From positions 1 to 64,000 of the forward strand of contig NZ_AP017558.1 of NCBI RefSeq assembly GCF_002355635.1: a stretch of 64,000 bases of DNA. The letters are read 5' to 3'. The notes under the pieces were generated by a model. The model made no database searches and was not told the DNA's origin. It was given only the letters and a program-made list of their open reading frames with translations. The position numbers and the translations under genes were made by a program. Every line of letters starts with the position of its first letter. The stretch's first letter is position 1. Source of the stretch: Halopenitus persicus. Its GTDB lineage: Archaea > Halobacteriota > Halobacteria > Halobacteriales > Haloferacaceae. Shown here in pieces: positions 2,070 to 55,264 of this stretch.

Positions 2070-3257
2070 TCACGAGCCGACCGGTCGGGGCGATCGGGAG
2101 ACCGGTTGCGATGAATGGCCGGTTCGGATGGCCTCCGTGCCGTCGACGAAGACTCGCGTGACCGTGGGTGTCGGGTCCGGATCCACGACGATGAGGTCGG
2201 CGCGAGCCCCCACCTCGATGCGTCCCCGTTCGGTGAGCCCGACGGTGTCGGCCGGGTTTCTGGTCACTCGGTTCACGCGGGTCGCAAACGGTTCGCCGGT
2301 CTCGACGAACGGGGCGGCGAGGAGCGACGGCGGATGGTAATCGGAACAGAGCACGTCGACGAGGCCGTGTTCGACGGCGGTTCGGACGCTGAGGTTGTCC
2401 CAGAGGCTCCCGCCGCGGACGAGGTTCGGCGCCCCCATCGCGGTCACGAGCCCGAGGCTGGTCGCTCGGCGGGCTGCCTCGATCGTGATCGGGTACTCGC
2501 TGATCTCCACCCCGTGATCGAACATCGCTTCGACGTCGCCTGATGACTCGTCGTCGTGGGAGGCGACCGGGATGCCGCTTCGCCGTGCGAGCGAGACGAT
2601 CCGGTCGATACGATCTCGACGGGCGGTCGATTCTATCGACCCGCGTGTCCTCGCGATCTCCTCGACGGCTTCGGCGGGCCAGTTCCGGTCCTCGACGTAG
2701 TGGCGCTCGAACTCGTCCGCGTCGTACTGACCGTCCCCCGGCAGATGACACATCACCGAGAGCAGGTCGACGGCGACGGCGTCGTCCTCGACGAGTCGTT
2801 CGACGGCGCTCACGCTCGCGTCGGTCAGCTCGCAGCGCGCGTGGAACCGGTTGTCGCCGAGGGTATACTCCTCGCCGGCGAGCTCACGGGCGATCGATTC
2901 GGCACGCTCGAGGCTGCGGCCGTCGTCCGGCGCGTCCTCGAACGCGATCGCGTGGAACTTCGTCGTGACGCCGTTGAGCAGGTTCGTGCGGTCGGCGCTC
3001 GTCAGCGCGGTTCGAAGATCGACGTCCGCACCGGAACGCGGGGACCGGTGGTGCTCGATGTCGTCGCCGTGGAGGTCGATGAGACCCGGCATAACGAGCT
3101 GTCCGTTCGCGTCGATGGTCGTCGCGCCCGGAATCGCCCGATCGGGTGTTCGGCCGACCCGCGTGATCCGGTCTCCGTCAACGACGACGTGGCCGTTTTC
3201 GACGATGCCCGACGGCGTGACGACGCGACCGTTCCGAATCTCGGTGAGACGGGTCAT
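2070..3257 (-). CDS. phnM: alpha-D-ribose 1-methylphosphonate 5-triphosphate diphosphatase (PhnM)
   Basis: 395-residue amidohydrolase-superfamily enzyme. PhnM removes diphosphate from ribose 1-methylphosphonate 5-triphosphate in the C-P lyase pathway. Visible features are the N-terminal beta-sandwich strand ending in GLIDLHGDDIEHH (metal ligands), the DLRTALTSADRTNLLNGVTT segment typical of PhnM, CHLPGDGQYD, the ASHDDE ligand motif and SDYHPPSL near the C-terminus, followed by VGLTERGRIEVGARADLIVVD, the usual amidohydrolase tail. Family length is about 380 residues, so it is full length. No other phn genes are in the window, so it may serve a split pathway or act on another substrate. The ATG at 3257 overlaps the stop of a 30-codon leader ORF (ATGA). 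Confidence 0.88.
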   Translation of the reverse strand: MTRLTEIRNGRVVTPSGIVENGHVVVDGDRITRVGRTPDRAIPGATTIDANGQLVMPGLIDLHGDDIEHHRSPRSGADVDLRTALTSADRTNLLNGVTTKFHAIAFEDAPDDGRSLERAESIARELAGEEYTLGDNRFHARCELTDASVSAVERLVEDDAVAVDLLSVMCHLPGDGQYDADEFERHYVEDRNWPAEAVEEIARTRGSIESTARRDRIDRIVSLARRSGIPVASHDDESSGDVEAMFDHGVEISEYPITIEAARRATSLGLVTAMGAPNLVRGGSLWDNLSVRTAVEHGLVDVLCSDYHPPSLLAAPFVETGEPFATRVNRVTRNPADTVGLTERGRIEVGARADLIVVDPDPTPTVTRVFVDGTEAIRTGHSSQPVSRSPRPVGS

Positions 3258-3346
3258 CGGTCCGTGCTCCCGGGTCGTGGATGGATCCGGCGCGTCGCGA
3301 TGCCGGCACGGGTACTCATCGGTTTCGGGTCAGGAGGATGGATCAT
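3254..3346 (-). CDS. leaderless mini-ORF coupled to phnM
   Basis: ATG at 3346 opens a 30-codon frame (MIHPPDPKPM...PGSTDR) whose TGA at 3254-3256 overlaps the phnM ATG as ATGA. The start is about 33 bp after a TATA-like GTAACAAAG (3375-3383, minus strand) and no ATG lies between. By spacing, ribosomes on a leaderless mRNA would translate this frame first and re-initiate at phnM. The peptide resembles nothing I know. One of a series of such mini-ORFs in this window. Confidence 0.5.
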   Translation of the reverse strand: MIHPPDPKPMSTRAGIATRRIHPRPGSTDR

Positions 3347-3374
3347 TCTAACCCGACCCTATGAACAGCCGGGG

Positions 3375-3383
3375 CTTTGTTAC
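3375..3383 (-). promoter_or_regulatory. TAACAA-type TATA element, phnM leader
   Basis: GTAACAAAG on the minus strand, about 33 bp before the mini-ORF ATG at 3346. The same word recurs before the plus-strand DUF7344 gene at 16579. Confidence 0.45.
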
Positions 3384-3668
3384 TTCTTTGCTACCATGGG
3401 TCACGGATCGGCGTCGAAACGGGTAGGAGACGGTTACGCTCCGAACGACGCCTATAAATCGACTGATAGCGTCGGGGCGCGACGTCACGATGGCGTGAGG
3501 GAACCGGAGATCCTTTGAGAACGGGAATAGATACTGTCGGACGGACGGCGCTTGAACGAGCGAGCGGCTCGAGCGCCGACTCCGGCTCGTCGGATCGGCG
3601 ATCTCGTACGATGAACCTACTGGAAGGTAGAGCATTACTATGTCGTGTGCGATCCCTCCTCAGTGTAT

Positions 3669-8315: not shown

Positions 8316-8591
8316 TCACGCGAGGTTCTGGGCTTCGATCGTCTTCCAGACCTCCTCCCCTCGATCGGTGATCCCGTACACGCGACCCTTTTGCCGGTTC
8401 TCCGAAACGAGCAGCTCGACGAGGTCGTGTTCCCGCAACCCCTGCAGCGAGCGCGAGACGTGGGTGATGGACCGGTCGGTGTCCGTGGCGATCCGGGAGG
8501 GGGTCGCGGGAGAGTCCGCGAGCCGCTGCAGAACGACGACGCGGTACGACGAGCTGATGACGTAGCTGACCTCGTCCCAATTATCCGCCAT
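8316..8591 (-). CDS. winged-helix DNA-binding regulator
   Basis: 91 residues, a single wHTH domain: helix 1 VISSSYRVVVLQRLAD, helix-turn-helix SPATPSRIATDTDRSITHVSRSLQGLREHDL, then the wing VELLVSENRQKGRVYGITDRGEEVW. This is the compact MarR/ArsR-like type common in haloarchaea. It overlaps the HAD gene by 11 bp and is the last gene of the run that starts upstream, so it may regulate this glycan operon or its own. No ligand domain is present. Confidence 0.8.
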   Translation of the reverse strand: MADNWDEVSYVISSSYRVVVLQRLADSPATPSRIATDTDRSITHVSRSLQGLREHDLVELLVSENRQKGRVYGITDRGEEVWKTIEAQNLA

Positions 8592-14972: not shown

Positions 14973-15136
14973 TATTGCTGTCTCCGTTTCGAGGACTCCG
15001 ACGGCTGCTCCACGAACGGGAGGTAATCGCGATGTGGGTTTTGTTATGCATCGCCTTCACCGCCGTCCCGGAGCGGTCGATCCATCGACCTCGCCTCCGT
15101 TTTCGCAAGCGCTCCGGCTCTCGACACCTCCGGCTC

Positions 15137-15196
15137 TCGACGGTCGGTAGCAAATCTCGATGGTCGGTAGCAAATCTCGATGTCCAGTGGCAAATA
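15137..15196. repeat. 20-bp tandem repeat, 3 copies
   Basis: Units tcgacggtcggtagcaaatc at 15137, 15157 and 15177 (third diverged), just downstream of the DUF7344 stop at 15214. Confidence 0.88.
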
Positions 15197-15213: not shown

Positions 15214-15867
15214 CTACTCGTTGCCGGGGTGCTCTGCGTCCGCACGGTTCGTCCAGATCCGATTGCCCGAGACGTATCCGTAGAGCAGGAGGACCACGAT
15301 GAGGGACACGATGGCGATGTCGACGATCGGGAGCGTCGTCATCGGGCGGAGTAGCAGGCTCGACCCGAGTACGGTTGCCCCCGCGAGCGAGAGCACCAAC
15401 GAGTACACGTGCCAGGGCTCGCCTTCCGGTTCCTCGGTCCGTTCCAGATACGTGTACAGTTCGTCCACGTTGTCCCCGAGCTCGATGATGCCGCGCGGCT
15501 TGTTGAACGAGACGACGTCCAACGCGTCCATCTTCGGGAGGTGACATTGATAGAGGCCCACGTAGACGCGTTTGCGCTCGCTCGAGGAGATCTGTGTGAC
15601 GTCCTTGTCGTTCTCCCAGGCGGCGATCTGTTCGGCGATCTCGCTCAACGAGACCGCCTCGTCGGCGTCGCTCAGATACTCCAGAACGTATCGGCGGCGT
15701 TGGTTCTTCAGTATGTCGAACATCTGGTCGAGCGGCAGCGCGTCCGCGCGTCGGTCCTCGGTTCGGTTCCCTTCGACCAGCTCCGACTCGATCTCGGCGT
15801 GCTCCTCGCGCAACTCGGCGGTGACGTCCTCCACATCGACCGACGAGTTATCCGCTGTTTGTGCCAT
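15214..15867 (-). CDS. DUF7344 membrane-anchored wHTH regulator
   Basis: 217 residues. An acidic N-terminus is followed by a wHTH of the DUF7344 type (LPLDQMFDILKNQRRRYVLEYL, SLSEIAEQIAAWEN, RKRVYVGLYQCHLPKMDALDVV) and two C-terminal hydrophobic segments (VYSLVLSLAGATVLGSSLLL and VDIAIVSLIVVLLLYGYV). Likely a membrane-bound transcription regulator. A paralogue faces it across a 0.7-kb gap. In the family, members often sit in glycosylation or archaellum regions, so control of the polysaccharide genes is plausible. Confidence 0.85.
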   Translation of the reverse strand: MAQTADNSSVDVEDVTAELREEHAEIESELVEGNRTEDRRADALPLDQMFDILKNQRRRYVLEYLSDADEAVSLSEIAEQIAAWENDKDVTQISSSERKRVYVGLYQCHLPKMDALDVVSFNKPRGIIELGDNVDELYTYLERTEEPEGEPWHVYSLVLSLAGATVLGSSLLLRPMTTLPIVDIAIVSLIVVLLLYGYVSGNRIWTNRADAEHPGNE

Positions 15868-15900
15868 TCACGTAGTCCCCCCGACTTCGGCCCACGTCAT
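15868..15900 (-). CDS. 10-codon mini-ORF abutting the DUF7344 start
   Basis: ATG 15900 encodes MTWAEVGGTT; its TGA (15868-15870) directly precedes the regulator ATG (TGA-ATG). A TGTACA element at 15923-15928 is 25 bp upstream. A second 10-codon frame, MYTNETGTVQ (15929 to 15897), ends with a TGA overlapping this ATG, so two mini-ORFs form a chain into the regulator gene. Confidence 0.45.
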   Translation of the reverse strand: MTWAEVGGTT

Positions 15901-15929
15901 TGGACCGTTCCTGTCTCGTTCGTGTACAT

Positions 15930-16490
15930 CTGATCGGCGAATTCGATGCCGTTGCGGCCCGCTTCGACCGGATATCGGCCCCTTTCTCGTTCTTTTAATT
16001 GGTATAAGCTGATCTTTTTAACTCTTGTGGACGATCGTTCGTCCAGGTCCCCAGTCACCCAACGTGGTCCCCGACGGCCGGACGATCCGACGGATGTCGG
16101 GGCGCCATCGCTCCGTCGGTCGGTCTCCGTTGGTCCCGGTCGATCGGTCCCCCTCGGTTCCGGGGTGGATCCGTGCTGTCTCCGCCGTGATAACGTCGGT
16201 TCGATCGATATGTCCATGTTTTTTATTTGTGTGCAGTGGGTCGCCCGATAGACGCTCGTTATCGGCGGTAGTGTCGATATTCGGGAGGGCGGACACGACC
16301 GCCTCACTCACTGCTCTCTGTTCCTTCCCCTTTGTTAACAACCTCCTACGAGGGTATGTTCCCGTCGTTTCGAACGATCCATTCGGACGGTTGATGCGTC
16401 TCCGGACGTGCTTCCCGTGGATCGGAGACGCAACGACGGGTCAATTCCATACTCCCAGTATGGTCGTTGTACTTCCAGTTATCTAGGCCG
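15930..16490. other. long divergent control region of two DUF7344 genes
   Basis: No gene supported. It holds AT-rich islands in GC-rich DNA: 15990-16023 (tcttttaattggtataagct and following atctttttaac) and 16212-16231 (ccatgttttttatttgtgtg). These probably contain further TATA/BRE elements or operators for the two membrane regulators. Confidence 0.45.
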
Positions 16491-16497
16491 TAACAAA
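16491..16497 (+). promoter_or_regulatory. TAACAA-type TATA element, plus-strand DUF7344
   Basis: gtaacaaag word, centred 29 bp before the mini-ORF ATG at 16523, identical to the word before the phnM leader. Confidence 0.5.
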
Positions 16498-16522
16498 GCA
16501 TACACGTCCTGTTCAACGCAGT

Positions 16523-16576
16523 ATGAGGGCCGCACCCCCAACCGTCGGTCTCGAGGACGGGCATCTAAATCAGTGA
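16523..16576 (+). CDS. 17-codon leaderless mini-ORF before DUF7344
   Basis: MRAAPPTVGLEDGHLNQ, ATG 16523 to TGA 16574-16576, two bases before the regulator ATG at 16579. First ATG after the TAACAA element at the leaderless distance. Confidence 0.45.
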   Translation: MRAAPPTVGLEDGHLNQ

Positions 16577-16578
16577 CT

Positions 16579-17139
16579 ATGAGTTCCGATTCTCCCTCCT
16601 CGACCGAGATGTCTCCGGACCTCGTTTTCGACATTCTTAGCAACACCCGTAGACGGATGGTGCTGTATTACCTCCGTCAGTACGGTGAACCGACCTCCGT
16701 CCAGAAACTCGCCGAGGAGATCGCCGCGTTGGAAAACGACGTGGCAGTCGACGAGTTGACGCAACAACAGCGAAAACGGGTGTACGTGTCGCTGTATCAA
16801 ACCCATCTTCCGAAACTCGAGGAGACCGGAGTCATCGAGTACGACGATGACCGGGACGAGGTCCACCTCACCGATCGTGTCGTCGAAATCGATACGTACC
16901 TCACGCCGACGACCGAATCGGAATATCCCTGGCAGCTCCATTATCTCGTGCTCGCGATCGTCGGCGGAGCGACTTTCGTCCTCTCCTCCCTCGGCGTCCC
17001 CGTCCTTGCTGCGGTCTCCACCGTCGAGTTGGGGAGCGTGCTCATCGTCGCGTTCGCCATCTCCGCGGTCGTACAGTACTGGCGATACCAACAGCGACAG
17101 CGGGAGATTCCGGCCGAGCTACTGGAACACGAAGGATAG
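16579..17139 (+). CDS. DUF7344 membrane-anchored wHTH regulator, paralogue
   Basis: 186 residues. The wHTH (SPDLVFDILSNTRRRMVLYYL, SVQKLAEEIAALEND, RKRVYVSLYQTHLPKLEETG) and two C-terminal membrane segments (WQLHYLVLAIVGGATFVLSSL; VELGSVLIVAFAISAVVQYW) parallel the gene at 15214, with a shorter N-terminus. ATG 16579 was chosen because the domain begins right after it and the longer frame upstream is Arg/Ser rich and lacks family similarity. The two divergent copies could form a hetero-oligomer or a regulatory switch. Confidence 0.85.
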   Translation: MSSDSPSSTEMSPDLVFDILSNTRRRMVLYYLRQYGEPTSVQKLAEEIAALENDVAVDELTQQQRKRVYVSLYQTHLPKLEETGVIEYDDDRDEVHLTDRVVEIDTYLTPTTESEYPWQLHYLVLAIVGGATFVLSSLGVPVLAAVSTVELGSVLIVAFAISAVVQYWRYQQRQREIPAELLEHEG

Positions 17140-17147: not shown

Positions 17148-17276
17148 CGACACGCATAGCCGACGTATCCAACGACACGCATAGCCGACGCAACTACCGA
17201 CACTCATCGAGCTGACCACAGCTATCGACACTCATCGAGCTGACCGCAGCTATCGACACTCATCGAGCCGACAGAT
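17148..17276. repeat. two adjacent tandem repeat families (25 bp and 28 bp)
   Basis: 25-bp unit beginning cgacacgcatagccgacg at 17148 and 17173; then a 28-bp unit beginning cgacactcatcgagctgacc at 17198, 17226 and 17254 (last partial). The stop codon of the next minus-strand gene (17250-17252) lies at the junction of the last two 28-bp units. Both families share the cgacac start. Confidence 0.92.
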
Positions 17277-18079: not shown

Positions 18080-18099
18080 TACAAAAGTACTGTTATACA
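18080..18099 (-). promoter_or_regulatory. promoter of the HalOD1 gene
   Basis: Minus-strand GTGTATAACAGTACTTTTGT. The inner ACTTTTGT is about 28 bp before ATG 18056; the outer TATAACA matches the recurring motif. Confidence 0.45.
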
Positions 18100-19097
18100 C
18101 CCGAGAGGGTTGATCCCGTATGGATCGGGCCCTCGATTACGACTTCGACCGCCTCGATCGGAAATGATTCGCGCGGGCGTGGCCGATCCCGCAGTCCGAT
18201 CGCGATGCCGACGATGCCAAGGAGTTGCTGGAGGACGAACTCGATCGCCCCGATGATCCCGCGTTCGGAGATCACGACGGCAACGGCGCCCATCGACAGC
18301 AGGACCCACGCGATCAGGGCGATCGACCCGGCGAGCAATGCGAGCACGCCGACGCAGAGCCACGCGAACGTGCCGATCCGGTACCGGAACCGGCTGATGT
18401 ACTTCCCCAACAGCTTCGGTGAGCGGACCGACCGCCGGAGAACCTGCCCCGGACCGAACGCGTAGCCCCGGGACCACCGTCGAAACGGCTCGTGTAACGT
18501 CGGCGGTTCGGGGTGACGGGCGGCCACCTCCGGCAGCCGCAGCAGCCGATATCCCGCGTCCGTGAGCAGAAATCCGAGATGAATGTCCTCGAGCGATCGC
18601 AGCTGCGGATCGAATCCGCCGACGGACCGAAGCGATGCGGCGTCGTACAGCGCGGTCCCCCTGACGGCGTCGACCTCGTGGATGGTCGTTTCGTCCGGGA
18701 GGCGGTTGAGATACCCGTCGACGGCGGCAACCCCGTTTCGAGCGATATACTCGCGCGCGTGGGAGAGCCAGTTCTTCTCCACCGTCATATCCCCGTCGAC
18801 GAACAATATCGACTCGCCGCGGGCAGCCTGCGTGCCGACGTATCGTCCCGCGCCGGGCGTCGTCAGGTCGTCCGACGGGATCCGGAGGACGGTGATCGGA
18901 TACTCGACCGCGTATTCGACCGTTCGATCGGTCGAGTTCGAGTCCACGAGGATGACCTCGAACTCCGAAAGCGAATCGCAGGCGTCGAGGACGGACTCGA
19001 TGCACGCACGGACCCGTTCCTCCTCGTTGTAGGTGACGATGACGACCGATAGCTCCGGGGTCTCCCCGCCGGTCTCCCTCGTGAATTCCACCGTCAT
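18093..19097 (-). CDS. GT2 family glycosyltransferase with membrane tail
   Basis: 334 residues. ELSVVIVTYNEEERVRACIESVL, FEVILVDSNSTDRTVEYA, ARGESILFVDGDMTV (DXD) and LRSLEDIHLGFLL (acceptor-side Glu-Asp) define a GT-A inverting enzyme of the haloarchaeal type. Residues about 235-300 have two or three membrane segments (FAWLCVGVLALLAGSIALIA; WVLLSMGAVAVVISERG). Works at the inner membrane face. The start ATG 19097 overlaps the stop of a 20-codon leaderless ORF. Its last codons overlap the promoter of the HalOD1 gene. Confidence 0.9.
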   Translation of the reverse strand: MTVEFTRETGGETPELSVVIVTYNEEERVRACIESVLDACDSLSEFEVILVDSNSTDRTVEYAVEYPITVLRIPSDDLTTPGAGRYVGTQAARGESILFVDGDMTVEKNWLSHAREYIARNGVAAVDGYLNRLPDETTIHEVDAVRGTALYDAASLRSVGGFDPQLRSLEDIHLGFLLTDAGYRLLRLPEVAARHPEPPTLHEPFRRWSRGYAFGPGQVLRRSVRSPKLLGKYISRFRYRIGTFAWLCVGVLALLAGSIALIAWVLLSMGAVAVVISERGIIGAIEFVLQQLLGIVGIAIGLRDRPRPRESFPIEAVEVVIEGPIHTGSTLSGV

Positions 19098-19156
19098 CTC
19101 CCGGCGATCACGTCGGTTGGGAACGGTCTCGAATCGACGGTGTGGTCCATAGTCAT
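19094..19156 (-). CDS. 20-codon leaderless mini-ORF coupled to GT2
   Basis: MTMDHTVDSRPFPTDVIAGR, ATG 19156 to TGA 19094-19096, overlapping the GT2 ATG as ATGA. CATAACAA (19180-19187, minus) is centred 27.5 bp upstream, an ideal leaderless spacing. Confidence 0.55.
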   Translation of the reverse strand: MTMDHTVDSRPFPTDVIAGR

Positions 19157-19179
19157 CGGATAGAGGACGATCGACCGAT

Positions 19180-19187
19180 TTGTTATG
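19180..19187 (-). promoter_or_regulatory. CATAACAA TATA element, GT2 leader
   Basis: Minus-strand CATAACAA, 27-28 bp before ATG 19156. Confidence 0.55.
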
Positions 19188-19231
19188 TGCCGGCTACCCG
19201 CGGAGCGCCCGTGCGTCCGTCGAGTCACGAC

Positions 19232-23597: not shown

Positions 23598-24485
23598 CTA
23601 CCGAGTCGATCGGGGACTCCCGTCCGATCGGGCGGACGCGTCGGCCACGTCCACGAGGTCGGGGTGTAAGACGGGGTAATCGACGTCCTCGCCCGCGCTG
23701 ACCCGGTCCCGTGTGCGTTGCCAGTCCGCATGCCGCACCTTTACGAGAACCGGTATCTCGGGGATGTCGAGCACCTTTGCCAGCGCAAGTCGGTGTCTCC
23801 CGTTGGTGTGATGTAACAGCTCACCATCGCGCCCGATGTCGACGGTCACCTCGTCGAGTGCGGCGGCGCCGTCACTGCCGACGCCGACGGCGCCGTCCGA
23901 GTCGATTCGGGTCACCCGCCGATATCCCTTCGACGCCATCGACTTCTTGAGGTCCTCGAGGTACTCGAACCGCTCGTGGAGCTCCCCGACCGTCGAGCAG
24001 CCGTATATCGGATGTCCCCGTTCGATACACGCCACGAACTCCTCGTATACCGACGTCTCCGTCCAGGGGATCCCTTCCCCGAACCGCTCCGCAATGAGCG
24101 TCCATTCGACGAGGTCGGCGAACCGTACCTCGGCCGCGTCCCACGCCCCGTCAAGGACGTCCCCGTACTCCGCGCATCGATGATACCACGGGCGCCGGAC
24201 GTATTCCAGATGCCGTCCCGTCTCTCGCCGCTCGATCTCGAGTCCGGAGACGTACTCGATGTCACGCGGGTCGACCCGACGTATCGCGAACGGGTCCGCG
24301 TCGGTTCGTGCCGTGGGAGTGTGTCGATACCGGAACCGCGCGGCTCTCGTCTCCAGCACGTGGTACCCGCTGGACAGCACGCCGCGCATCCCTTCCGATT
24401 CGTATCGGTCCCGCACCCGATGAACGACGTCCGCGACGCCGATCGAGGGCAGCGCTGTCGGATCCGGTCCCATTGTGCCGATCAC
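23598..24485 (-). CDS. haloarchaeal protein with ParB-like GRHRLALAK motif
   Basis: 295 residues, no signal or membrane segment. The first part (SEGMRGVLSSGYHVLETRAARFRYRH) is typical of a family next to haloarchaeal glycan genes that I cannot name. The C-terminal part DIGRDGELLHHTNGRHRLAL, AKVLDIPEIPVLVKVRH resembles the ParB/Srx-type fold where GRHRL contacts a nucleotide phosphate. It may bind or hydrolyse a nucleotide, possibly to regulate or prime glycan synthesis. CATAACTA/TAGTTATG box at 24511-24518 lies 30 bp before the GTG at 24485; ATG 24473 is the alternative start. Confidence 0.65.
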   Translation of the reverse strand: MIGTMGPDPTALPSIGVADVVHRVRDRYESEGMRGVLSSGYHVLETRAARFRYRHTPTARTDADPFAIRRVDPRDIEYVSGLEIERRETGRHLEYVRRPWYHRCAEYGDVLDGAWDAAEVRFADLVEWTLIAERFGEGIPWTETSVYEEFVACIERGHPIYGCSTVGELHERFEYLEDLKKSMASKGYRRVTRIDSDGAVGVGSDGAAALDEVTVDIGRDGELLHHTNGRHRLALAKVLDIPEIPVLVKVRHADWQRTRDRVSAGEDVDYPVLHPDLVDVADASARSDGSPRSTR

Positions 24486-24510
24486 GTCTCCCCGAGGCGG
24501 CGGAGCCGCG

Positions 24511-24518
24511 TAGTTATG
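24511..24518 (-). promoter_or_regulatory. CATAACTA TATA element
   Basis: Minus strand, centred about 30 bp before GTG 24485. Direct leaderless start without a mini-ORF. Confidence 0.5.
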
Positions 24519-24543
24519 CGGGGCTTATCCGCCGATCGCTTCG

Positions 24544-27498: not shown

Positions 27499-28767
27499 AT
27501 GGAGCAGGACGACGCGTCACGGGCCGACCATCGCGGCGAGCTCCCGCCGTGGTCTCGACGAGCGAGCCGCAATCGACGACGGTGGCGACGGGTTCCCCCG
27601 GCCATCACGCCGGTCCGTCTCGCCGACATCGCGGCCGGAATCGCGGGGCAGCGTGCCGGGACCGGCCGTGACGAGTTTCGAACGGAGTTCACATCGTTCC
27701 TCGATGCGGAGAGCGCCGCAAGCTACACCTCGTATCGTCGCGCCCTCTGTGCGTGTCTCCTGGAGCTCTCGTCGCGAACGGACGACGGCCGGAGCGAGGT
27801 ATACGTGCCGGCGTTTTGTAGCTCGGATTTCGCCGATGCCATCGAGGGCGCCGGACTGACCGTCTCGCGGTACGACGTGGACCCGGAGACGATGGCCCTC
27901 GATCCGGCGTCGTTGGAGGGACTGCCGACGGAGACCGCGCTCGCCGTGGTCGTCGTCAACGTGCTGGGATACGGCTCCCCGATGGATCGGGTCACGGAAT
28001 ACTGTCGCGAGAACGACATCTATCTGGTCGAGGCGCTGGGCTATTCGATAGGCTCCGAATACGGGTCCGAACGGCTCGGAACCTTCGGGGACTGTTCGGT
28101 GGTGAACTTCCAGCAGGGAAAGCCGATCCCCGTGGGCGGCGGGATGGTCGTTTCCCAGGACGCCGACCTCGAGTTCTCCGACGAGGGACGTCCCGCGGTG
28201 GCCCCGAACCTCGACACCCTGACCGGATACGCCGTCTTCGGTCATCCGCGGCCGTATTTCCTGTATTCGCGGATCGCCGACTGGTTCGATCGGATCGACG
28301 TGTCGACCGCTCGGTACAGCACCCACCCCGAATCCAAGTTCGACGTGTCCTACGCACCGCCGTTCGCGACCATCTCGAACTTTCAAGGGACGGTCGCACG
28401 GCGGCTATTCGGCCGGCTCGAGACGCACCGTCGCCGTCGAGAGCACACGGCCGCGGTGTACGCGACCGAGCTGGCCGACTGTCCGCACGTCCGACACGTG
28501 CGGCCGGTTTCGGGGCTTTCGAACCACCAACACGTCAGATATCCCCTTCTCATCGATGCTCCCGATCTGCGGGACGAGCTGCGGGAAGCGCTCTCCGGCG
28601 TGGGGGTCGAGGCCGTCGCGCTGTACGATTGGCCGCCGATCGACGACGCGGCGTTTCCCGGCGCGGCCCGACTCCAGCGCGGCATCATCACGTTGCCAAC
28701 CCATCCGTACGTTGACGAAGCCGACCGGCGATTAATCGTTCGGACGGTTCGGGACGTATTAAGGTAA
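27499..28767 (+). CDS. DegT/DnrJ/EryC1-like aminotransferase, divergent
   Basis: 422 residues. PLP-type fold: ASYTSYRRALCACLLELSSR, EVYVPAFCSSDFADAIEGAG, VEALGYSIGSEYG and a Schiff-base Lys in NFQQGKPIPVGGGMVV. The Lys motif and long C-terminal half differ from the enzyme at 13232, so the substrate is probably different. The N-terminal 35 residues are Arg rich and variable; a later start is possible but a TATA-like patch about 25 bp upstream supports ATG 27499. The stop codon lies inside a 20-bp tandem repeat. Confidence 0.82.
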   Translation: MEQDDASRADHRGELPPWSRRASRNRRRWRRVPPAITPVRLADIAAGIAGQRAGTGRDEFRTEFTSFLDAESAASYTSYRRALCACLLELSSRTDDGRSEVYVPAFCSSDFADAIEGAGLTVSRYDVDPETMALDPASLEGLPTETALAVVVVNVLGYGSPMDRVTEYCRENDIYLVEALGYSIGSEYGSERLGTFGDCSVVNFQQGKPIPVGGGMVVSQDADLEFSDEGRPAVAPNLDTLTGYAVFGHPRPYFLYSRIADWFDRIDVSTARYSTHPESKFDVSYAPPFATISNFQGTVARRLFGRLETHRRRREHTAAVYATELADCPHVRHVRPVSGLSNHQHVRYPLLIDAPDLRDELREALSGVGVEAVALYDWPPIDDAAFPGAARLQRGIITLPTHPYVDEADRRLIVRTVRDVLR

Positions 28768-28820
28768 CAAGCGTGTCGGGAACGTAACAAACGTGTCGGG
28801 AACGTAACAAGCGTGTCAGG
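28764..28820. repeat. 20-bp tandem repeat, 3 copies, over a stop codon
   Basis: gtaacaagcgtgtcgggaac at 28764, 28784 and 28804 (partial). The TAA stop of the aminotransferase (28765-28767) is in the first unit. Confidence 0.92.
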
Positions 28821-29024
28821 AGATCGTGGTGCGGTCGCGGGCGGAGCGGAGAACACGTCGAAGTTGGCTTCGGGGTACGAGCGGATCGTGTGGACGACAC
28901 GTCGCGAGCGAATGGAGCACGGGATCGGTCGCATACCGCCCGACGCCTCGACGACTTCGGGCCCTGCGTCTGCCGGGTCTCGCACGGCGCGGGGTATGAG
29001 ACCCCTATGCTGCACAAGCATACT

Positions 29025-29032
29025 ATAACAAT
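29025..29032 (+). promoter_or_regulatory. TATAACAA TATA element
   Basis: Centred 29-30 bp before ATG 29058. Confidence 0.6.
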
Positions 29033-29057
29033 ACGTCTTACCGACGAGACAGCAACT

Positions 29058-29246
29058 ATGTTACACCGAGACGCCGAATACGTCGACCGTATCCCGACGC
29101 GCTCGACCGGGCGGCCCCGAGTAATCCCGGCTTACGTGAGTCGGGACGCCCGCGGAACCCTCCAGCGTGCCGGAACGACGCCAGGGAAGCAGTGCCACCG
29201 GGACCACCGGCGCGAATCCGAGTCGGGGAACTCGACGGACAGATGA
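29058..29246 (+). CDS. 62-codon leaderless ORF coupled to the dehydrogenase
   Basis: MLHRDAEYVDRIPTRSTGRP..., basic and disordered, ATG 29058 to TGA 29244-29246 overlapping ATG 29243. The TATAACAA box is at the leaderless distance and no other ATG intervenes. No family recognised. The longest of the mini-ORF series. Confidence 0.5.
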   Translation: MLHRDAEYVDRIPTRSTGRPRVIPAYVSRDARGTLQRAGTTPGKQCHRDHRRESESGNSTDR

Positions 29247-30229
29247 GCGAGTCCAGCGCACGACCGACGCGGCTCGCCGCCGGCGTGATCGGCGTCGGGT
29301 CCATGGGTCAACATCACGCGAGAGTGTACAACGAGCTGCCCGACTCCGAACTCATTGGCGTCAGCGACGTTGACGAGGAACGGGCAGCGGCGGTCGCAGC
29401 GAACCACGGGACGCGACCGATGGGTCGGTCGGAGCTGCTGGACGCGGCCGACGTGGTTTCGGTGGTCGTCCCGACGCAACATCACTACGAGACGGTGCTG
29501 CAGTGCATCGAGCACGACGTCGACGTGCTCGTCGAGAAGCCGTTCGTCGACGACGTCGACCAGGGTCGAGAGCTCGCCGAGCGGGCCGCCGAGGCCGGCG
29601 TTACGCTTCAAGTCGGCTTCATCGAGCGGTTCAACCCCGCAACGCGGGTGCTCGCGGACATCGTCCCCGACCTCGACGTCGTCGCGATCGACGTCGACCG
29701 GCTCGGCCCGCCGGTGGACCGCGACGGCAGCGACAGCGTCGTGATGGACCTGATGGTTCACGACATCGACATCCTGCTGTCGCTCGTCAAAAGCGACATC
29801 GAGTCGCTGTCGGCGGCCGCCCACGACGAGGGCCACGCCGCGGTGCAGTTCCGGTTCGAGGACGGGAGCATCGCCGCGTTGACGGCCAGCCGACTGACCC
29901 AGCAGAAGGTCCGAACGCTCTCGGTCACCGCGATGTCCTGTCGCGTGAACGTCGACTTCATCAGTCAGACCGTCGAGATCCACCGTCATTCGATCCCCGA
30001 GTACATCGAGTCCGACGGGGACATCCGCTACCGTCACGAGAGCGTGGTCGAACGGCCGATCGTCGAGAACGGCGAACCGCTCAAGGCCGAGCTCGAATCG
30101 TTCGTGACTGCCGCCCGCGAGGGAACCGAACCCCTGGTCACCGCCGAGGACGCGCTCCGCGTTCTCGAGGTCGCCACCCGGATCGAGGACCTGGCGCTGG
30201 CGCCGAAAGCGGTGGTGAACTCGCCGTGA
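29243..30229 (+). CDS. Gfo/Idh/MocA oxidoreductase, UDP-GlcNAc 3-dehydrogenase-like
   Basis: 328 residues. N-terminal Rossmann fold AGVIGVGSMGQHHARVYNEL, catalytic-region EKPF (VLVEKPFVDD), then the C-terminal sheet domain with DLMVHDIDILLSLVKSD, where Asp/His are usual catalytic residues. Closest to archaeal UDP-N-acetylglucosamine 3-dehydrogenases that make 3-keto and then 3-amino sugars, which fits a DegT aminotransferase just upstream and a UDP-ManNAc-type dehydrogenase just downstream (GTGA overlap). Confidence 0.88.
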   Translation: MSESSARPTRLAAGVIGVGSMGQHHARVYNELPDSELIGVSDVDEERAAAVAANHGTRPMGRSELLDAADVVSVVVPTQHHYETVLQCIEHDVDVLVEKPFVDDVDQGRELAERAAEAGVTLQVGFIERFNPATRVLADIVPDLDVVAIDVDRLGPPVDRDGSDSVVMDLMVHDIDILLSLVKSDIESLSAAAHDEGHAAVQFRFEDGSIAALTASRLTQQKVRTLSVTAMSCRVNVDFISQTVEIHRHSIPEYIESDGDIRYRHESVVERPIVENGEPLKAELESFVTAAREGTEPLVTAEDALRVLEVATRIEDLALAPKAVVNSP

Positions 30230-39171: not shown

Positions 39172-40983
39172 TCACTCGACGGTCACGCTTTTGGCGAGGT
39201 TTCGTGGTTTGTCGATGGAGCGGTCCATCTCGTCGGCGGCGTGATAGGCGATGAGCTGGAGCTGGACGTTGGCGAGGATCGCCACGAGATCCGGATGCGT
39301 CGCGGGAACGGGGAGGAACTCGTCGGCGGTGTCCGCGAGCTCCGTCGCGTTTCGCGGCGCGATCGCGATGACGGGAGCGCCCCGGGTTTGGATCTCGTTG
39401 ATGTTGCTCTCGAGCCGATTCCGGTGCTCCCCGGTTCCGACCGCGAAGACCGGCGTCTCCGGCGTCACGAGCGCGAGCGGACCGTGTTTCAGCTCGCCGG
39501 CGGCGAACCCCTCGGCGTGCTCGTAGGTTATCTCCTTGAACTTCAGTGCGCCCTCCAGCGCCACGGAGTAGGCGTTTCCGCGCCCGATGAAGAAGTGCCC
39601 GCTCTCACCCAGCCATCGTCGGCTGATGGCGGTCGCGAGCGTGTCCTGGGTCACCATCTCGACGTGTTCCGGGAGCGACTCGAGCGCGTCCAGCCGTTGT
39701 CGATGGTCCTCGGTCGGCTCGCCGGTGACGTCCCGAACGAGCCGCTCCCCGAGGAGGACGAGCGACGCGACCTGCGAGGAGAACGTCTTGGTGGCGGCGA
39801 CGCCGATCTCGGGACCAGCACGGATGAACAGCGCGTCATCGCACGTTCGCGCCGCGGTCGATCCGATGACGTTGGTGAGCGCGAGCGTGCGTGCGCCGCG
39901 GCGTCGTGCGCTCGCCAACGCCTCCAGCGTGTCCGCGGTCTCTCCGCTCTGCGTGACGCCGATCACCAGCGTGTTCTCGTCGACCGGTGCCGGGTAGGCG
40001 GCGTACTCGCTGGCGATGTGGGTGTCGGCGTCGATCCCCCAGTTGGAGAGGAGCCACTCGCCGTACATCCCGGCGTGGTAGGACGTCCCGCAGGCGACCA
40101 ACTGGACGCGCGAGACGTCGTCGAACGTCCCGGACGGGAACTCCTCGAGCACGACGTCGTCGTCGTCGATGCGCCCGTGGAGCGTCTGCCGGAGGGCCAT
40201 CGGCTGCTCGTGGATCTCCTTGAGCATGTAGTGGTCGTAGCTGCCCTTCTCGGCGTCTTCGGGATCCCAGTCGACCGTCTCGATCGAGCGGGAGATCGGG
40301 TCCCCCGTCGCGTCGGTTATGCGATGGCCGTCGACCGTGACGGCGACGACGTCGTCGTCCTCCAGGTACACGACCCGGTCCGTGAACTCCAGGAACGCCG
40401 GCACGTCGCTCGCGAGGTAGTTCGCGGTCTCCCCGACGCCGACCACGAGCGGCGACCCGTTGCGCGTCGCGTATATCGTCGGATCGTCGTCGACGATCAT
40501 CGCGATCGCGTAACTCCCCTCGAGCCGGTCGATGGCCCGGCGGAAGGCGGTCTCCGCGTCCCGGCCGGCCCCCAGCTCCTCCTCGACGAGATGGGGGATC
40601 ACCTCGGTGTCGGTGTCGCTCGTGAACTCGTGACCACGCGTCCGCAGCTCCTCGCGAAGCTCGGCGTAGTTCTCGATGATTCCGTTGTGAACGACCGCCA
40701 CCCGCCCGTGACAGCCGGTGTGCGGATGCGCGTTCTCGTCCGTCGGGGGACCGTGCGTACTCCAACGCGTGTGGCCGATCCCGACCCGCCCGTTCTGCCC
40801 GGTGAACGCGAGCTCCGATCGGAGATCCGACACCTCCCCCTCACACTTGCTGATCGCGAGTTCGGATCCGTTCTGCATCGCGATGCCGGCCGAATCGTAC
40901 CCACGGTACTCGAGGTTTTCGAGGCTTCCCAGCAGCGCTTCGAGGGAGTCGTCGTCGCCGACCCGGGCAGTGATGCCACACAT
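39172..40983 (-). CDS. glmS: glutamine--fructose-6-phosphate aminotransferase
   Basis: 603 residues. Makes glucosamine 6-phosphate, the entry to UDP-GlcNAc. N-terminal glutaminase domain with Cys1 after Met (MCGITARVG), VAVVHNGIIENYAEL, GTSDTEVIPHLVEEE-like SDTDTEVIPHLVEEELG; two SIS isomerase domains follow (VACGTSYHAGMYGEWLLSNW; VIGVTQSGETADTLEAL; FFIGRGNAYSVALEGALKFK) and the C-terminal DKPRNLAKSVTVE. Full length. ATG 40983 gives Cys1, required for activity. It supplies precursor for the whole cluster. Its start shares one base with the stop of a 38-codon leaderless ORF. Confidence 0.97.
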   Translation of the reverse strand: MCGITARVGDDDSLEALLGSLENLEYRGYDSAGIAMQNGSELAISKCEGEVSDLRSELAFTGQNGRVGIGHTRWSTHGPPTDENAHPHTGCHGRVAVVHNGIIENYAELREELRTRGHEFTSDTDTEVIPHLVEEELGAGRDAETAFRRAIDRLEGSYAIAMIVDDDPTIYATRNGSPLVVGVGETANYLASDVPAFLEFTDRVVYLEDDDVVAVTVDGHRITDATGDPISRSIETVDWDPEDAEKGSYDHYMLKEIHEQPMALRQTLHGRIDDDDVVLEEFPSGTFDDVSRVQLVACGTSYHAGMYGEWLLSNWGIDADTHIASEYAAYPAPVDENTLVIGVTQSGETADTLEALASARRRGARTLALTNVIGSTAARTCDDALFIRAGPEIGVAATKTFSSQVASLVLLGERLVRDVTGEPTEDHRQRLDALESLPEHVEMVTQDTLATAISRRWLGESGHFFIGRGNAYSVALEGALKFKEITYEHAEGFAAGELKHGPLALVTPETPVFAVGTGEHRNRLESNINEIQTRGAPVIAIAPRNATELADTADEFLPVPATHPDLVAILANVQLQLIAYHAADEMDRSIDKPRNLAKSVTVE

Positions 40984-41099
40984 CAGACCGTCACCTCCGA
41001 CGCGTCGTCGGTCGACCGTCCGGTCCACCGGGCGTGCTTGCGCGGACGCGTCGAGGAGCGGTCGGTCCCCTCCACACAATGCGGGTTTGTGAATCGCAT
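40983..41099 (-). CDS. 38-codon leaderless ORF coupled to glmS
   Basis: ATG 41099 opens MRFTNPHCVEGTDRSSTRPR and ends ASEVTV at a TGA (40983-40985) that shares its A with the glmS ATG (TGATG). GTATAACAAAG (41123-41133, minus) is centred 29-30 bp upstream. The ORF holds a His-Cys pair but no domain. A leader that could tune GlmS output, where bacteria use a ribozyme. Confidence 0.6.
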   Translation of the reverse strand: MRFTNPHCVEGTDRSSTRPRKHARWTGRSTDDASEVTV

Positions 41100-41122
41100 A
41101 CCGCCAGAAGGGTCGAGACTAC

Positions 41123-41133
41123 CTTTGTTATAC
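41123..41133 (-). promoter_or_regulatory. GTATAACAAAG TATA element of glmS
   Basis: Minus strand, 29-30 bp before ATG 41099. Confidence 0.65.
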
Positions 41134-41223
41134 AGCGACTGGCACAGCCGGGGGTGGAACGACCCCCGGTAACGACCTGCTACTCCCGCCGCTCGACGTC
41201 GATCCGATGGTTTCGAGTTCTAG

Positions 41224-41466: not shown

Positions 41467-41646
41467 TCACCGCCAGGTGGCCAACGAGACGTACGCCCCC
41501 TGCTTCGCCGTTATCCACTCGGTCGTGTGTCGATCCTCCCCGGGATCGACCGGATGAAGCGTACATTCCTCGGAACCATCGTCGTATCTCACGATCGTCG
41601 CCTCGATCACCGACCCCCGCGTTCCGGATCCGTCAGTCGTTCTCAT
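41467..41646 (-). CDS. DUF7511-type mini-protein
   Basis: 59 residues. ATIVRYDDGSEECTLHPVDP and EWITAKQGAYVSLATWR match the haloarchaeal DUF7511 pattern. Function unknown. GTG 41649 or ATG 41646 can start; CATAACAA (41677-41684, minus) is about 31 bp upstream of 41649, so it is leaderless without a mini-ORF. Confidence 0.8.
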   Translation of the reverse strand: MRTTDGSGTRGSVIEATIVRYDDGSEECTLHPVDPGEDRHTTEWITAKQGAYVSLATWR

Positions 41647-41676
41647 CACGGGTGATAGCTGATGGCCTTGCTCGCA

Positions 41677-41684
41677 TTGTTATG
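41677..41684 (-). promoter_or_regulatory. CATAACAA TATA element of the DUF7511 gene
   Basis: Minus strand CATAACAA within GCGCATAACAATGCG, about 31 bp upstream of the start. Confidence 0.55.
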
Positions 41685-41689
41685 CGCTT

Positions 41690-41955
41690 CCTACCGGTCG
41701 GTTCCGGACGGGTCGTCGAACCTCGTCCAACCGATCGGGTGCTGGCGTGACGGTTACCGACTCACCGTGGGATGGTGGCCAGCTGTCGTTCGGGATCATA
41801 CAATTACAACTATATTATTGTAATATAACGGCGGGTAACAGACGACATCGTTCATCACAGTTCGCCACGATTCACCATCGTTCGTCATCACGGGCGATCG
41901 CGGAGAGCGTCGTCGTGGGAGTGAGTGGTCCCCGACGACGAGTAGCCGCCGTCTA
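41690..41955. other. divergent intergenic region without a gene
   Basis: An AT-rich patch (caattacaactatattattg, 41801-41820, then taatataac) stands out in GC-rich DNA and may be an operator or upstream promoter. The epimerase TATA is probably ctactaat (41954-41961), about 30 bp before its ATG. Confidence 0.4.
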
Positions 41956-45914: not shown

Positions 45915-46073
45915 TCACCCGCGAACCGGTGATCCGCCCCGTCGTCGTTCGGTATCGACGAGATCCTCGATCGGCGTTTCTTCAGCAGCTCCGTCCCGCA
46001 AGTGGTGAATGTGCCGTCGTCGCCGCCCATCCAAGAGAAATTTCAGAGACGCGTCAAGATCGTCCGTACTCAT
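45915..46073 (-). pseudogene. truncated DUF7344-type regulator
   Basis: ATG 46073 gives 52 residues, MSTDDLDASLKFLLDGRRRR then HIHHLRDGAAEETPIEDLVD, matching the first helix and turn of DUF7344 wHTH domains, then leaves the pattern and stops. The rest of the domain is absent. It borders the decayed IS6 copy, which probably disrupted it. Confidence 0.6.
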
Positions 46074-46083
46074 AGCACCACAA

Positions 46084-46750
46084 TGGTCGCGTTTCGTTTG
46101 TGGCGTGCTGCTAGAATGCGGCGGTGTGGACCCACGTTTCAGCCGTGCGTGGATCGACGTGGGGTGAAACAGTTTGCAAAAAAATAGGTGTTCCGTTTTA
46201 TAATATAAGAGATATATTCGGTGCTGTTTGGATTTCCGTGCCGGTCGTAATGGAAACCGAGGCCGTGTGGTTGCAGCGCGGTTGGGAGCCACTCCCCATC
46301 AGCAACGAGAACCAGCGCGGTACCGAGACGCGATGCGTCTCGTGCGCCCGTCAGCACGCAGTGCGTTCTGGCGGGCGGCCTCAACGTCGCGTGTCTCACG
46401 ACGCTCTCGGTGGAATCTCTCGACGAGCGCGGTCGTATACGTGGAGAAGCCGAATCTGACGGCAGTGGTTTGCTGCCGGATCGGCTTTCCGTCCCCGGTC
46501 GTGGACGACTGTTCGGCCATATGGTGCCCGAAATATAAATTATATATAATCTATACATAATATATTTAAAATTTATATATTTTCGGCGTGGCGCTGACTA
46601 TCGAGCTTCATCACCGATCGGGGGCGTCCGCTCACGCTCCACAACGTCCACAGCGATCCAGTCGCGACCACCGCTGCGGCGTGTGATCTCGGGCAGAGAG
46701 CACGCAGAACTCATCACGCCTCACGTGTCATCCGTAACGAAACACGACTC
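46084..46750 (-). mobile_element. decayed IS6-family (ISH-type) copy
   Basis: About 670 bp homologous along its length to the intact element next to it: shared words include cacgtttcagc, gcgaggccgtgtggttg-type stretches, cgtatacgtggagaagccgaat, cttcatc-ccgatcggg and catcacgcctca. The transposase frame is broken and two AT-rich patches have entered, including a 59-bp palindromic one. Its outer end (aacgaaacacgact) is a mutated terminal repeat. Confidence 0.8.
46528..46586. repeat. AT-rich palindromic insert in the decayed IS6
   Basis: 59 bp, only the ends have G or C: ccgaaatataaat on the left and atttatatattttcgg on the right are imperfect inverted repeats. It replaces about 40 bp that are present in the intact copy. 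Confidence 0.7.
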
Positions 46751-46760
46751 CACAGCACCA

Positions 46761-47456
46761 GTCGTGTTTAGTTTGTAGCATTGTGCCAGACGGCGAAGGT
46801 GTGTAACCACGTTTCAGCTGTGCTTGGATCAACGTGGCTAAAACAGTTTGAGAACGAAGAGGTGCGTCGTTTTATTTCACGGAAGATACGTTCGACGCTG
46901 TTACGATTTCCGTGGCGTTCGTATCTGAAATCGAGGCCGTGTCGTTGGAGCGCGGTTTGCAACCAATCCGCATCATCGACAAGAAATAGCGTGTCATCAA
47001 CATCGTGTTTCTCACGGAGCTCTCTGAGAAAGATCTCAGTTAATGCAGTCGTATACGTGGAAAAGAGCCGAATATGAAGGAAGTGGTTTGTAGATGGATC
47101 GACCGCCGCGTACAACCAGTACTGCTGATCATTGATTCGGATCACGCTCTCATCAACCGCCACTTGTTCCGGATTGGCACCTCCGTCAAGTTGCAGATCG
47201 GCTTTCTGTACCCAATCGTGGACGGCTTTTCGGCTGCGTGTGACACCCAACTTATCAAGAATCGAGATGGTATTCGAAAGTGAGAGACCAGCAACGTGAA
47301 GTTGAATACCAAGCTTCATCGCCGATCGGGGTGTCCGATCGCGCTCCACAAAATCCACATCGATCCAGTCGCAACCACCGCTGAGGCGTGTGATTTCGGG
47401 CATAGACCACTCAGAAATCATCACGCCTCACTTTTCATAGTTAACTAAACACGACT
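46761..47456 (-). mobile_element. intact IS6-family (ISH-type) insertion sequence
   Basis: 696 bp with perfect 14-bp terminal inverted repeats (agtcgtgtttagtt at 46761-46774 and its complement at 47443-47456), flanked by an 8-bp direct repeat acagcacc (46753-46760 and 47457-47464), the size typical of IS6 target duplications. It landed about 40 bp before the tautomerase start and beside an older copy in the same orientation. Confidence 0.95.
46768..47403 (-). CDS. IS6-family transposase
   Basis: 211 residues. MPEITRLSGGCDWIDVDFVE start and TPRSAMKLGIQLHVAGLSLS-type helix-turn-helix, then the DDE core: first Asp in QVAVDESVI, second in FLVDDADWL, Glu in NSVERIFREIKRRT. The C-terminus (HTFAVWHNATN) is as in relatives. 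Leads cointegrate-forming transposition. ATG 47403 is the conserved start; seven extra codons upstream are possible. Confidence 0.95.
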   Translation of the reverse strand: MPEITRLSGGCDWIDVDFVERDRTPRSAMKLGIQLHVAGLSLSNTISILDKLGVTRSRKAVHDWVQKADLQLDGGANPEQVAVDESVIRINDQQYWLYAAVDPSTNHFLHIRLFSTYTTALTEIFLRELREKHDVDDTLFLVDDADWLQTALQRHGLDFRYERHGNRNSVERIFREIKRRTSSFSNCFSHVDPSTAETWLHTFAVWHNATN

Positions 47457-47469
47457 ACAGCACCCGTGC

Positions 47470-47478
47470 CAATGTACA
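47470..47478 (+). promoter_or_regulatory. TATA-like element between IS6 and tautomerase
   Basis: aatgtacaa, about 30 bp before ATG 47504 and only 6 bp from the target duplication; the IS replaced the DNA upstream of this promoter. Confidence 0.4.
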
Positions 47479-47503
47479 AGACCGACGCGACGGAAGTCAT
47501 CCT

Positions 47504-47878
47504 ATGCCGTTGTTACAGTTCGATACGACGCTCGCGCTGTCGCCCGCGGAGAAAACCTCGGTGGCGGAGACGGTCACGGAGCTGTATACGACCTCGATGG
47601 CGACGACGCGAGGTCACGTCGCCGTGACGATCCGCGACCGTGAGCCGGCCGACCTCCACCTCGGCCGCGCCGTCGAGGGACCGCTGTTGTTCCTGGACGC
47701 GGAGATCCGGCAGGGCAGGCCCTTCGAGCGCAAACGGGAGTTTGCGCTTGCGGTGATGGAGCACGTTGGAACCACGTTCGACGTTCCCGATGAGAACATG
47801 AAGACGGTCTTCACCGAGCATCCGGGCGACGCGATGATGGGCGTCGACCGCGTCGGCGGCGAGTGGAACGAAGAGTGA
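47504..47878 (+). CDS. tautomerase-superfamily protein (4-OT/MIF-like)
   Basis: 124 residues. Pro2 after Met (MPLLQFDTTLALSP) is the catalytic base of the tautomerase superfamily; HVAVTIRDREP and GPLLFLDAEIRQGRP fit the two beta-alpha-beta units. Substrate unknown. Leaderless from a promoter just next to the IS6 element. Confidence 0.85.
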   Translation: MPLLQFDTTLALSPAEKTSVAETVTELYTTSMATTRGHVAVTIRDREPADLHLGRAVEGPLLFLDAEIRQGRPFERKREFALAVMEHVGTTFDVPDENMKTVFTEHPGDAMMGVDRVGGEWNEE

Positions 47879-47929
47879 CGCCGACGAGAACCGTCCTGCC
47901 GAAGGTTCGAGCGCCGTGGACCCCCGCTG

Positions 47930-49012: not shown

Positions 49013-49037
49013 TACTTTGACTTGGCAAATGGACCGC

Positions 49038-49053
49038 AAAACAGTACTGTTTT
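49038..49053 (-). promoter_or_regulatory. fni: perfect 16-bp palindrome at the fni promoter
   Basis: aaaacagtactgtttt, a perfect palindrome 26-41 bp before GTG 49012. It covers the expected TATA/BRE position, so a dimeric regulator bound here would block initiation. Confidence 0.6.
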
Positions 49054-49059
49054 ACGGAT

Positions 49060-49450
49060 TTGCGGTTGCCATGGATTTCTCCGACACGGAGGGAAGTCAC
49101 AGCGATCAGTTCGCAGCCGTACCAACAGCTACGTACCAGCGTCTGCGCCCAGTGCCAGAATGAAAATTGGCATCCTCACGCGCCGAAACGTGCGGATAGT
49201 CCCCATATTCGGTAGAAACCGTACTGAAATCAAAGTTAATCCGTCTCAAATTCCGTTTGGTGGAAGAAGGGGTCGTCGACGGACCGAAGGCCGGTCAGTG
49301 ACACGGGGAAGACTAGCCAGACCGACGTCGAAGATCACCCAAGGGGTTGTATTCAGCACCGAACGGACCCGTATTCCATCGTGGCCGAATGACTGGTATA
49401 GCGGTAGGAGAACTCCGATCCTCCGTCGGTTTCCTCCCCCGAGTTCGCCG
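49060..49450. other. intergenic region without a supported gene
   Basis: Frames on both strands are short and lack coding character. AT-richer than the neighbours in 49215-49260. Nothing recognised. Confidence 0.4.
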
Positions 49451-49453
49451 GAT

Positions 49454-49882: not shown

Positions 49883-50050
49883 CGCTAATGCACCGAAGGT
49901 ACATACGTTGGAAAACATAATGAATATATATTATGAAATTTCCGACATAAGTCGTCATTTCTCAGTGACTTCTCCACGACTACAGTCGCGGCTTTCTCCT
50001 CGATCGCAACAGCGTTTCTTTGGTTTATCAGAGAATAAGTGGATTTTATG

Positions 50051-51238: not shown

Positions 51239-51313
51239 ACGCGCTATTCAACGAATAACACGTTAATTCTTTGTCCACTCGTATGAAGCGGCAGGACTCT
51301 GCGTTGGCGCCTC

Positions 51314-52736: not shown

Positions 52737-52796
52737 CCCGACCGTCTCAGAGAAGGTACATATCAGTGGTCCCTACGGGCTCGAAGCTCCGAAATC

Positions 52797-55263: not shown

Positions 55264-55264
55264 C

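Follow-up and report, generated by a model that had tools for sequence, protein, structure and literature searches.

Two paralogous genes for winged-helix proteins face away from each other in a polysaccharide region of Halopenitus persicus, and the question raised by this locus is whether the pair, together with the short reading frames in front of each gene, is the regulatory hub of that region, as the original prediction held. The sequence analysed, here called the window, is a stretch of 64,000 nucleotides, and the genes of the region encode glycosyltransferases, DegT aminotransferases, a Wzx-type flippase, a polysaccharide deacetylase, a GFO/IDH/MocA oxidoreductase, GlmS and an epimerase. 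The features between and including the two genes, L and R, are as follows.

15214..15867, minus strand: L, DUF7344 winged-helix protein of 217 aa with C-terminal hydrophobic stretches (PF24035, E 1e-30)
15868..15900, minus strand: left mini-ORF 2, MTWAEVGGTT, whose TGA stop abuts the ATG of L
15897..15929, minus strand: left mini-ORF 1, MYTNETGTVQ, with an ATGA overlap with mini-ORF 2; frame open to 16307
16454..16525, plus strand: R promoter, with TA steps at intervals of roughly a helical turn (from an alignment of 22 promoters), ending at the uORF ATG
16478..16499, plus strand: GTTATCTAGGCCGTAACAAAGC, with an RTAACWA box at 16490-16496; 20 of 22 bases identical in three genera
16523..16576, plus strand: 17-codon uORF, MRAAPPTVGLEDGHLNQ, its ATG 33 nt after the box start and its stop 2 nt before the ATG of R
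16579..17139, plus strand: R, DUF7344 winged-helix protein of 186 aa with two predicted membrane helices (PF24035, E 4.4e-31)

Pfam comparison confirmed the back-to-back arrangement of two paralogous genes over 0.7 kb: both proteins match PF24035 (L 106.3 bits, R 107.5 bits) above the curated gathering cut-off of 27.8, and the divergent genes are separated by 711 bp (15868-16578). AT-rich islands had been described between them; the G + C content falls to 0.57 at 16001-17000 versus mostly 0.63-0.68 in the rest of the first 41 kb. Two membrane helices had been assigned to each protein. An AlphaFold2 model of R contains a winged-helix domain followed by two C-terminal helices (117-137 and 148-175), the helices being of low confidence in a model with a mean pLDDT of 73 built from a three-sequence alignment; the two hydrophobic stretches in L were recognised by inspection of the alignment only. 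The best Foldseek match of the R model was the ArsR-type protein SrnR, with an E-value (0.018) that is not significant. A third, truncated DUF7344 piece had been placed at 45915-46073, but this piece has no Pfam match at E 0.01 and its likeness to R is weak (BLASTP, 29% identity over 41 columns, E 0.010 in a single comparison). The segment from 46001 to 59000 has a lower G + C content (0.50-0.64), carries a DDE transposase gene (55456-56160) and is probably a mobile insertion adjoining the polysaccharide region. Short direct repeats, GACACGCATAGCCGACG and TATCGACACTCATCGAGC, lie directly downstream of R (17150-17265), and GGTCGGTAGCAAATCTCGATG occurs in tandem directly downstream of L (15140-15190).

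The pairing of L with R is conserved in polysaccharide loci, where the two are arranged divergently or in tandem. A tree with 71 rows placed every one of the 28 R genes from the loci compared in a single clade (SH-aLRT 97) and 31 L genes in one group (support 87). An L-type gene was found within the fetched stretch in 25 of the 28 loci with an R-type gene; since the window and 12 of those loci had been picked for a visible L/R pair, the fair figure for pairing is the 12 of 15 found among loci picked by R alone. The home genome (3.1 Mb, two contigs) has, besides R, five more places resembling L, and no close R or L was found in the two other genomes of the genus. In L075 and L076, from two genomes of one genus, the R-type homologues have one internal TGA in the aligned stretch and are possibly decaying copies.

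Alignment of the intergenic region in G000, G289 (another family of the same order) and G225 (Halorubrum xinjiangense) revealed that conservation is confined mainly to GTTATnnAGGCCGTAACAAAGC and the part following it. With up to two mismatches, GTTATnnAGGCCGTAACAAAGC was found as a single copy in three of the 293 genomes representing the order, upstream of R every time. Scanning a genome contig collection with the exact pattern also gave three matches, in Halorubrum xinjiangense, a Nostoc and an Oligoflexia MAG, the latter two of which were taken as chance. More distant R genes carry a degenerate form of the element. RTAACWA stands 32-34 nt before an ATG in 22 of the 28 R genes, and these 22 form one subclade (support 91) with the other six as its sister (82); five of the six have the box but no ATG at 32-34 nt, and one has neither. 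In the alignment of the 22 promoters, invariant or nearly invariant TA steps recur at columns 10-11, 21-22, about 32 and 42-43, that is, about every helical turn. The model built from these promoters (R1) has a single match in the whole home genome (E 4.2e-10). A scan for sigma-70 promoters and intrinsic terminators, which follow a bacterial consensus of little meaning for this archaeon, found none in the region.

The R model also matched, more weakly, ahead of neighbouring genes, which prompted a simple count of RTAACWA over the loci. It occurs 186 times in the 28 loci (580 kb), 65 times with an ATG at 32-34 nt versus a background of 6.9 for three positions; eleven permuted boxes in the same loci had an ATG at this distance in 26 of 454 occurrences. 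These counts are fixed at 32-34 nt, and pairs at 35-37 nt, several of them in the window, lie outside both counts and training. Apart from the 22 R promoters, most of the other 43 pairs stand ahead of polysaccharide-type genes, directly or via a uORF, including genes for GlmS, flippases, metal-dependent hydrolases, deacetylases and DegT proteins, as well as phosphodiesterase-like and FG-GAP-looking repeat proteins (recognised by eye rather than by Pfam). Besides that of R, the following boxes of the window have an ATG or GTG near this distance or match the model described below.

3254..3395, minus strand: box 3383, ATG at 37 nt, 30-codon uORF with an ATGA overlap with the amidohydrolase gene 2070-3257
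15029..15070, minus strand: box 15047, ahead of a hexapeptide acyltransferase gene; R2 match, no coupled uORF resolved
19094..19209, minus strand: box 19186, ATG at 36 nt, 18-codon uORF with an ATGA overlap with the family 2 glycosyltransferase gene 18093-19097
24485..24529, minus strand: box 24517, with an in-frame GTG of gene 23598-24473 at 32 nt
28999..29246, plus strand: box promoter (box 29025), 62-codon uORF with an ATGA overlap with the GFO/IDH/MocA gene 29243-30229
40983..41157, minus strand: box promoter (box 41131), 38-codon uORF with a one-base overlap with the GlmS gene 39172-40983
41467..41695, minus strand: box 41683 and a small DUF7511 gene, with a GTG at 34 nt and an ATG at 37 nt

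No ATG or GTG lies 31-37 nt from any remaining RTAACWA box of the window. The box-bearing genes span 3.4 to 41.7 kb, near the limits of 4-43 kb originally given for the region. The simple pattern is not commoner in the home genome than its reversed control (10 versus 9 occurrences); three of the ten exact matches are inside the window, which is 2% of the genome. Three tandem copies of the 20-bp GTAACAARCGTGTCGGGAAC, each with RTAACAA, are located at 28753-28823, at the end of an aminotransferase gene; the box promoter at 29025 follows some 240 bp downstream.

Two of the 65 pairs were dropped for want of a plausible gene, leaving 41 non-R promoters, which have an A at -9 in 95% and an A 11 nt before the ATG in 59%. 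The latter coincides with the position of the -10 WW element proposed for haloarchaea in the parts of PMC4983044 available to us. As outlined there, the canonical haloarchaeal basal promoter (BRE CGAAA, TATA element TTWT, -10 WW) shares with the box promoters the position of the box and the A at -11 from the presumed start, but has TTWT where these have RTAACWA. No TTWT stood at the expected place and RTAACWA was present in all aligned promoters, which speaks for this promoter set only, as its members were chosen by the RTAACWA box. The literature searched, consisting of open-licence papers, held no description of the element.

For a second model, R2, 37 of the 41 non-R promoters were used, the other four (one in L080, two in L082, one in L087) being left out because in our judgement no clear polysaccharide gene lay behind them. 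Searching 170 genomes of the family with R2, 11 of which had contributed to training, gave a match at E 1 or better in 120, and many of the matches listed lie close together on one contig. The R2 matches of the window at 15029-15070 and 19164-19209 are outside the training set. Among the annotated CDS of seven named plasmid loci, likewise outside training, 16 of 210 have a box at the predicted distance (9 directly, 7 via a uORF), while eleven permuted boxes together gave 4 (2 and 2). The 16 include glmM in two Halobaculum plasmids, GlmS and R of Haloarcula sp. GH36, R of Haloarcula hispanica pHH400, an epimerase gene of Halorubrum lacusprofundi, two HTH genes and one hypothetical gene. In Haloarcula hispanica ATCC 33960, R is HAH_RS18910 and is preceded by the box and a 16-codon uORF. 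The promoter class extends beyond R, and together with its coupled mini-ORFs it is the main finding, R being one member. Its recurrence ahead of surface-polysaccharide genes in many related species points to a shared control system not described in the literature searched.

The best correlate of box number was a third winged-helix gene of the window:

8316..8591, minus strand: W, small winged-helix protein of 91 aa (PF25213, HVO_A0261_N)

W passes the gathering score of PF25213 (44.4 bits, cut-off 35). It is present in 27 of 35 R loci, in one of them cut by the contig end; of the eight R loci lacking it, six Halorubrum-type ones have W 32-35 kb away on the same contig, that of G396 has it on another contig, and in the 40-kb stretch of Haloarcula hispanica pHH400 the R device occurs without W. 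Taking genomes with W at E 1e-26 or better as W-positive (60 of 170), R2 matches averaged 8.75 per genome (minimum 3) versus 1.96 in the 110 W-negative genomes (p 2e-22), figures to be read with the W and R cut-offs having been chosen after the lists were seen and the genomes being related rather than independent. At least five matches were found in 55 of the 60 W-positive and 19 of the 110 W-negative genomes (up to 18), and the 49 W-positive genomes outside training had a mean of 8.59. In each of the ten genera mapped with both states, W-positive genomes stood above W-negative ones. G299 and G300, of the same family, have 18 and 16 R2 matches and no W at E 1e-8 among the matches listed; this exception could reveal another reader of the box.

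A rival explanation, in the sense of the original prediction, would be that R and/or L bind the box themselves as master regulators of the island. R does carry the best-conserved version of the element, which occurs once in its genome; L accompanies R in most loci picked by R alone; and genomes with a strong R homologue are richer in R2 matches (means 8.9, n=16, versus 3.2, n=45; p 4e-6). However, among sampled genomes without a strong R, W-positive ones averaged 8.45 matches (n=11) and W-negative ones 1.44 (n=34; p 5e-7), whereas among sampled W-positive genomes R made no clear difference (means 9.5 and 8.5, p 0.14). Mastery of the box by DUF7344 alone is weakened by these data and seems unlikely; as box number tracks W better than R, R looks like a member of the regulon rather than its master. 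W is the best candidate for the reader, rather than a shown regulator, given the post hoc cut-offs, the relatedness of the genomes and the chance that another island gene might predict box number as well; W, R and the boxes may co-vary only through common membership of the island.

It is similarly improbable that the box is a core promoter variant for a particular TBP/TFB pair, with no dedicated regulator and with clustering due to the shared descent of island genes. Such a variant would fit the location of the box at the expected TATA position and the many matches in W-negative genomes such as G299 and G300, but the box tracks W in ten of ten genera and precedes unrelated gene families.

The 17-codon frame ahead of R, noted in the original prediction, is present at 16523-16576 (plus strand), is clearly above chance and is a conserved device of R genes. 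Among the 22 R promoters the uORF has 10-22 codons, stops within -15..+10 nt of the R start in 20 and is fused in frame to R in none. Over all box loci, 39 of 51 uORFs stop within this range of a gene start, compared with 102 of the 402 ATGs that lie upstream of genes elsewhere (a chance of about 25% for each such ATG), and six uORFs had no gene found behind them. Substitutions in the R uORFs are even across codon positions (142/143/130 and 61/44/58); the peptide is apparently not selected, and a coding role for it was rejected. A 13-codon arginine-rich uORF (like MIRIEPRRRGRFR) precedes a phosphodiesterase-like gene in L088, L089, L091, L115 and L116, with a four-base ATGA or GTGA overlap in four of the five and, unlike R uORFs, a third-position substitution bias (20/18/38). 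It is quite doubtful that the R uORF is a chance frame, preserved only for an ATG close to where the transcript begins, for instance because that ATG fixes the start site: the even codon positions, the quarter of arbitrary ATGs ending near a gene start and the commonness of ATGA (many genes start ATGA) would suit it, yet 20 of 22 R uORFs end near R, none is fused in frame, and the 13-codon uORF has a codon-position bias.

The constant spacing of 32-34 nt between box and ATG suggests a leaderless transcript, and the most economical reading, we infer, would be a leaderless uORF with reinitiation at R. Leaderless transcripts are given as the rule in haloarchaea, with 72% of protein-coding transcripts in Haloferax volcanii, in the portion of PMC4983044 consulted. 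In the same species, the sections of PMC6728339 at hand report strict coupling in nine of nine overlapping or adjoining gene pairs tested, ATGA overlaps among them. The close or overlapping stops and starts found here, including the 2 nt between uORF and R, are those of such termination-reinitiation pairs (ATGA/TGATG). As described there, the upstream partner is a full gene, whereas in the present case a uORF of some 10-70 codons takes that place, probably at the beginning of the transcript.

On the left side, the chained frames with their ATGA overlap and TGA-ATG junction are real, but the start that gives mini-ORF 1 ten codons is only one of those possible, as its frame is open for 136 codons upstream (15897-16307, minus strand); this longer frame has no Pfam match. 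Neither G289 nor G225, two close relatives, has a coupled uORF ahead of L. Some coupled uORF precedes 16 of the 24 L genes examined, that of the window included, and five of six Halorubrum-type tandem loci have one with ATGA. With coupling by chance at about 25% per ATG, the left pair is not shown to be above chance, and its conservation, not seen in G289 or G225, was rejected; it is on the right side that the mini-ORF matters.

Known archaeal regulators offer partial parallels, as far as they are described in the parts of PMC6396743 and PMC13286277 available. ArnR and ArnR1 of Sulfolobus acidocaldarius are, like L and R, a paralogous pair of membrane-anchored HTH factors, for a cell-surface structure, and act through boxes just upstream of the core promoter (PMC6396743, PMC13286277). 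These boxes are described as inverted repeats, whereas here a run of TA steps is combined with RTAACWA in the core promoter position (PMC6396743, PMC13286277). R has the N-terminal HTH domain and, with low confidence in the membrane part of its AlphaFold2 model, the helices. ArnR is credited with a putative HAMP and a sensory domain (PMC6396743, PMC13286277), whereas R has 186 aa in all, and Pfam found neither domain in L or R; with these domains missing we do not claim ArnR/ArnR1 membership, but by analogy L and R probably work like that pair. EarA of Euryarchaeota resembles the proposed system in being a winged-helix activator that uses repeated short sites near a weak promoter and is said to help TFB recruitment, but differs in its target genes and its site, TACATA (PMC6396743, PMC13286277), and W, at 18.9 bits, is under the Pfam EarA cut-off of 22.

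That the locus is a regulatory point of the polysaccharide region is supported by a box common to R and other polysaccharide promoters and by a conserved L/R pair, but the DUF7344 pair itself is less well supported as the hub, since box number tracks W. The best explanation, to which we give a probability of about 0.6, is that the right half of the L-R gap would be one copy of a promoter class common to haloarchaeal polysaccharide-island genes, leaderless and uORF-coupled, with W as reader and L and R as level-setters. Its core, GTA-N8-RTAACAAW (RTAACWA in R promoters), would stand where a TATA element is usually found, at 32-34 nt from an ATG downstream, and transcription would probably begin at or next to that ATG. 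As the geometry shows, the ATG opens either the gene itself or a short uORF stopping at the gene start, in which case the gene may be read by termination-reinitiation. R would be the regulon member with the most elaborate promoter, its extra helically spaced TA steps looking like a tandem operator. W, encoded in the same island and correlated with box number, would most likely read the box, and L and R, with their predicted membrane anchors, may set the level of the regulon on an envelope signal.

On the control of polysaccharide coats in archaea, the literature searched records little. With one recognisable promoter class and candidate regulators that can be named, this control becomes directly testable, the genes that belong together can be predicted and start sites can be corrected. 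More tentatively, polysaccharide islands may have their own expression system, in which GTA-N8-RTAACAAW stands for TATA, an island-encoded winged-helix activator is needed, leaderless mRNAs often start with an obligatory mini-ORF and a membrane DUF7344 pair serves as envelope-linked modulators. If true, this would provide a natural example, in archaea, of a leaderless mRNA on which translation of the uORF is obligatory.
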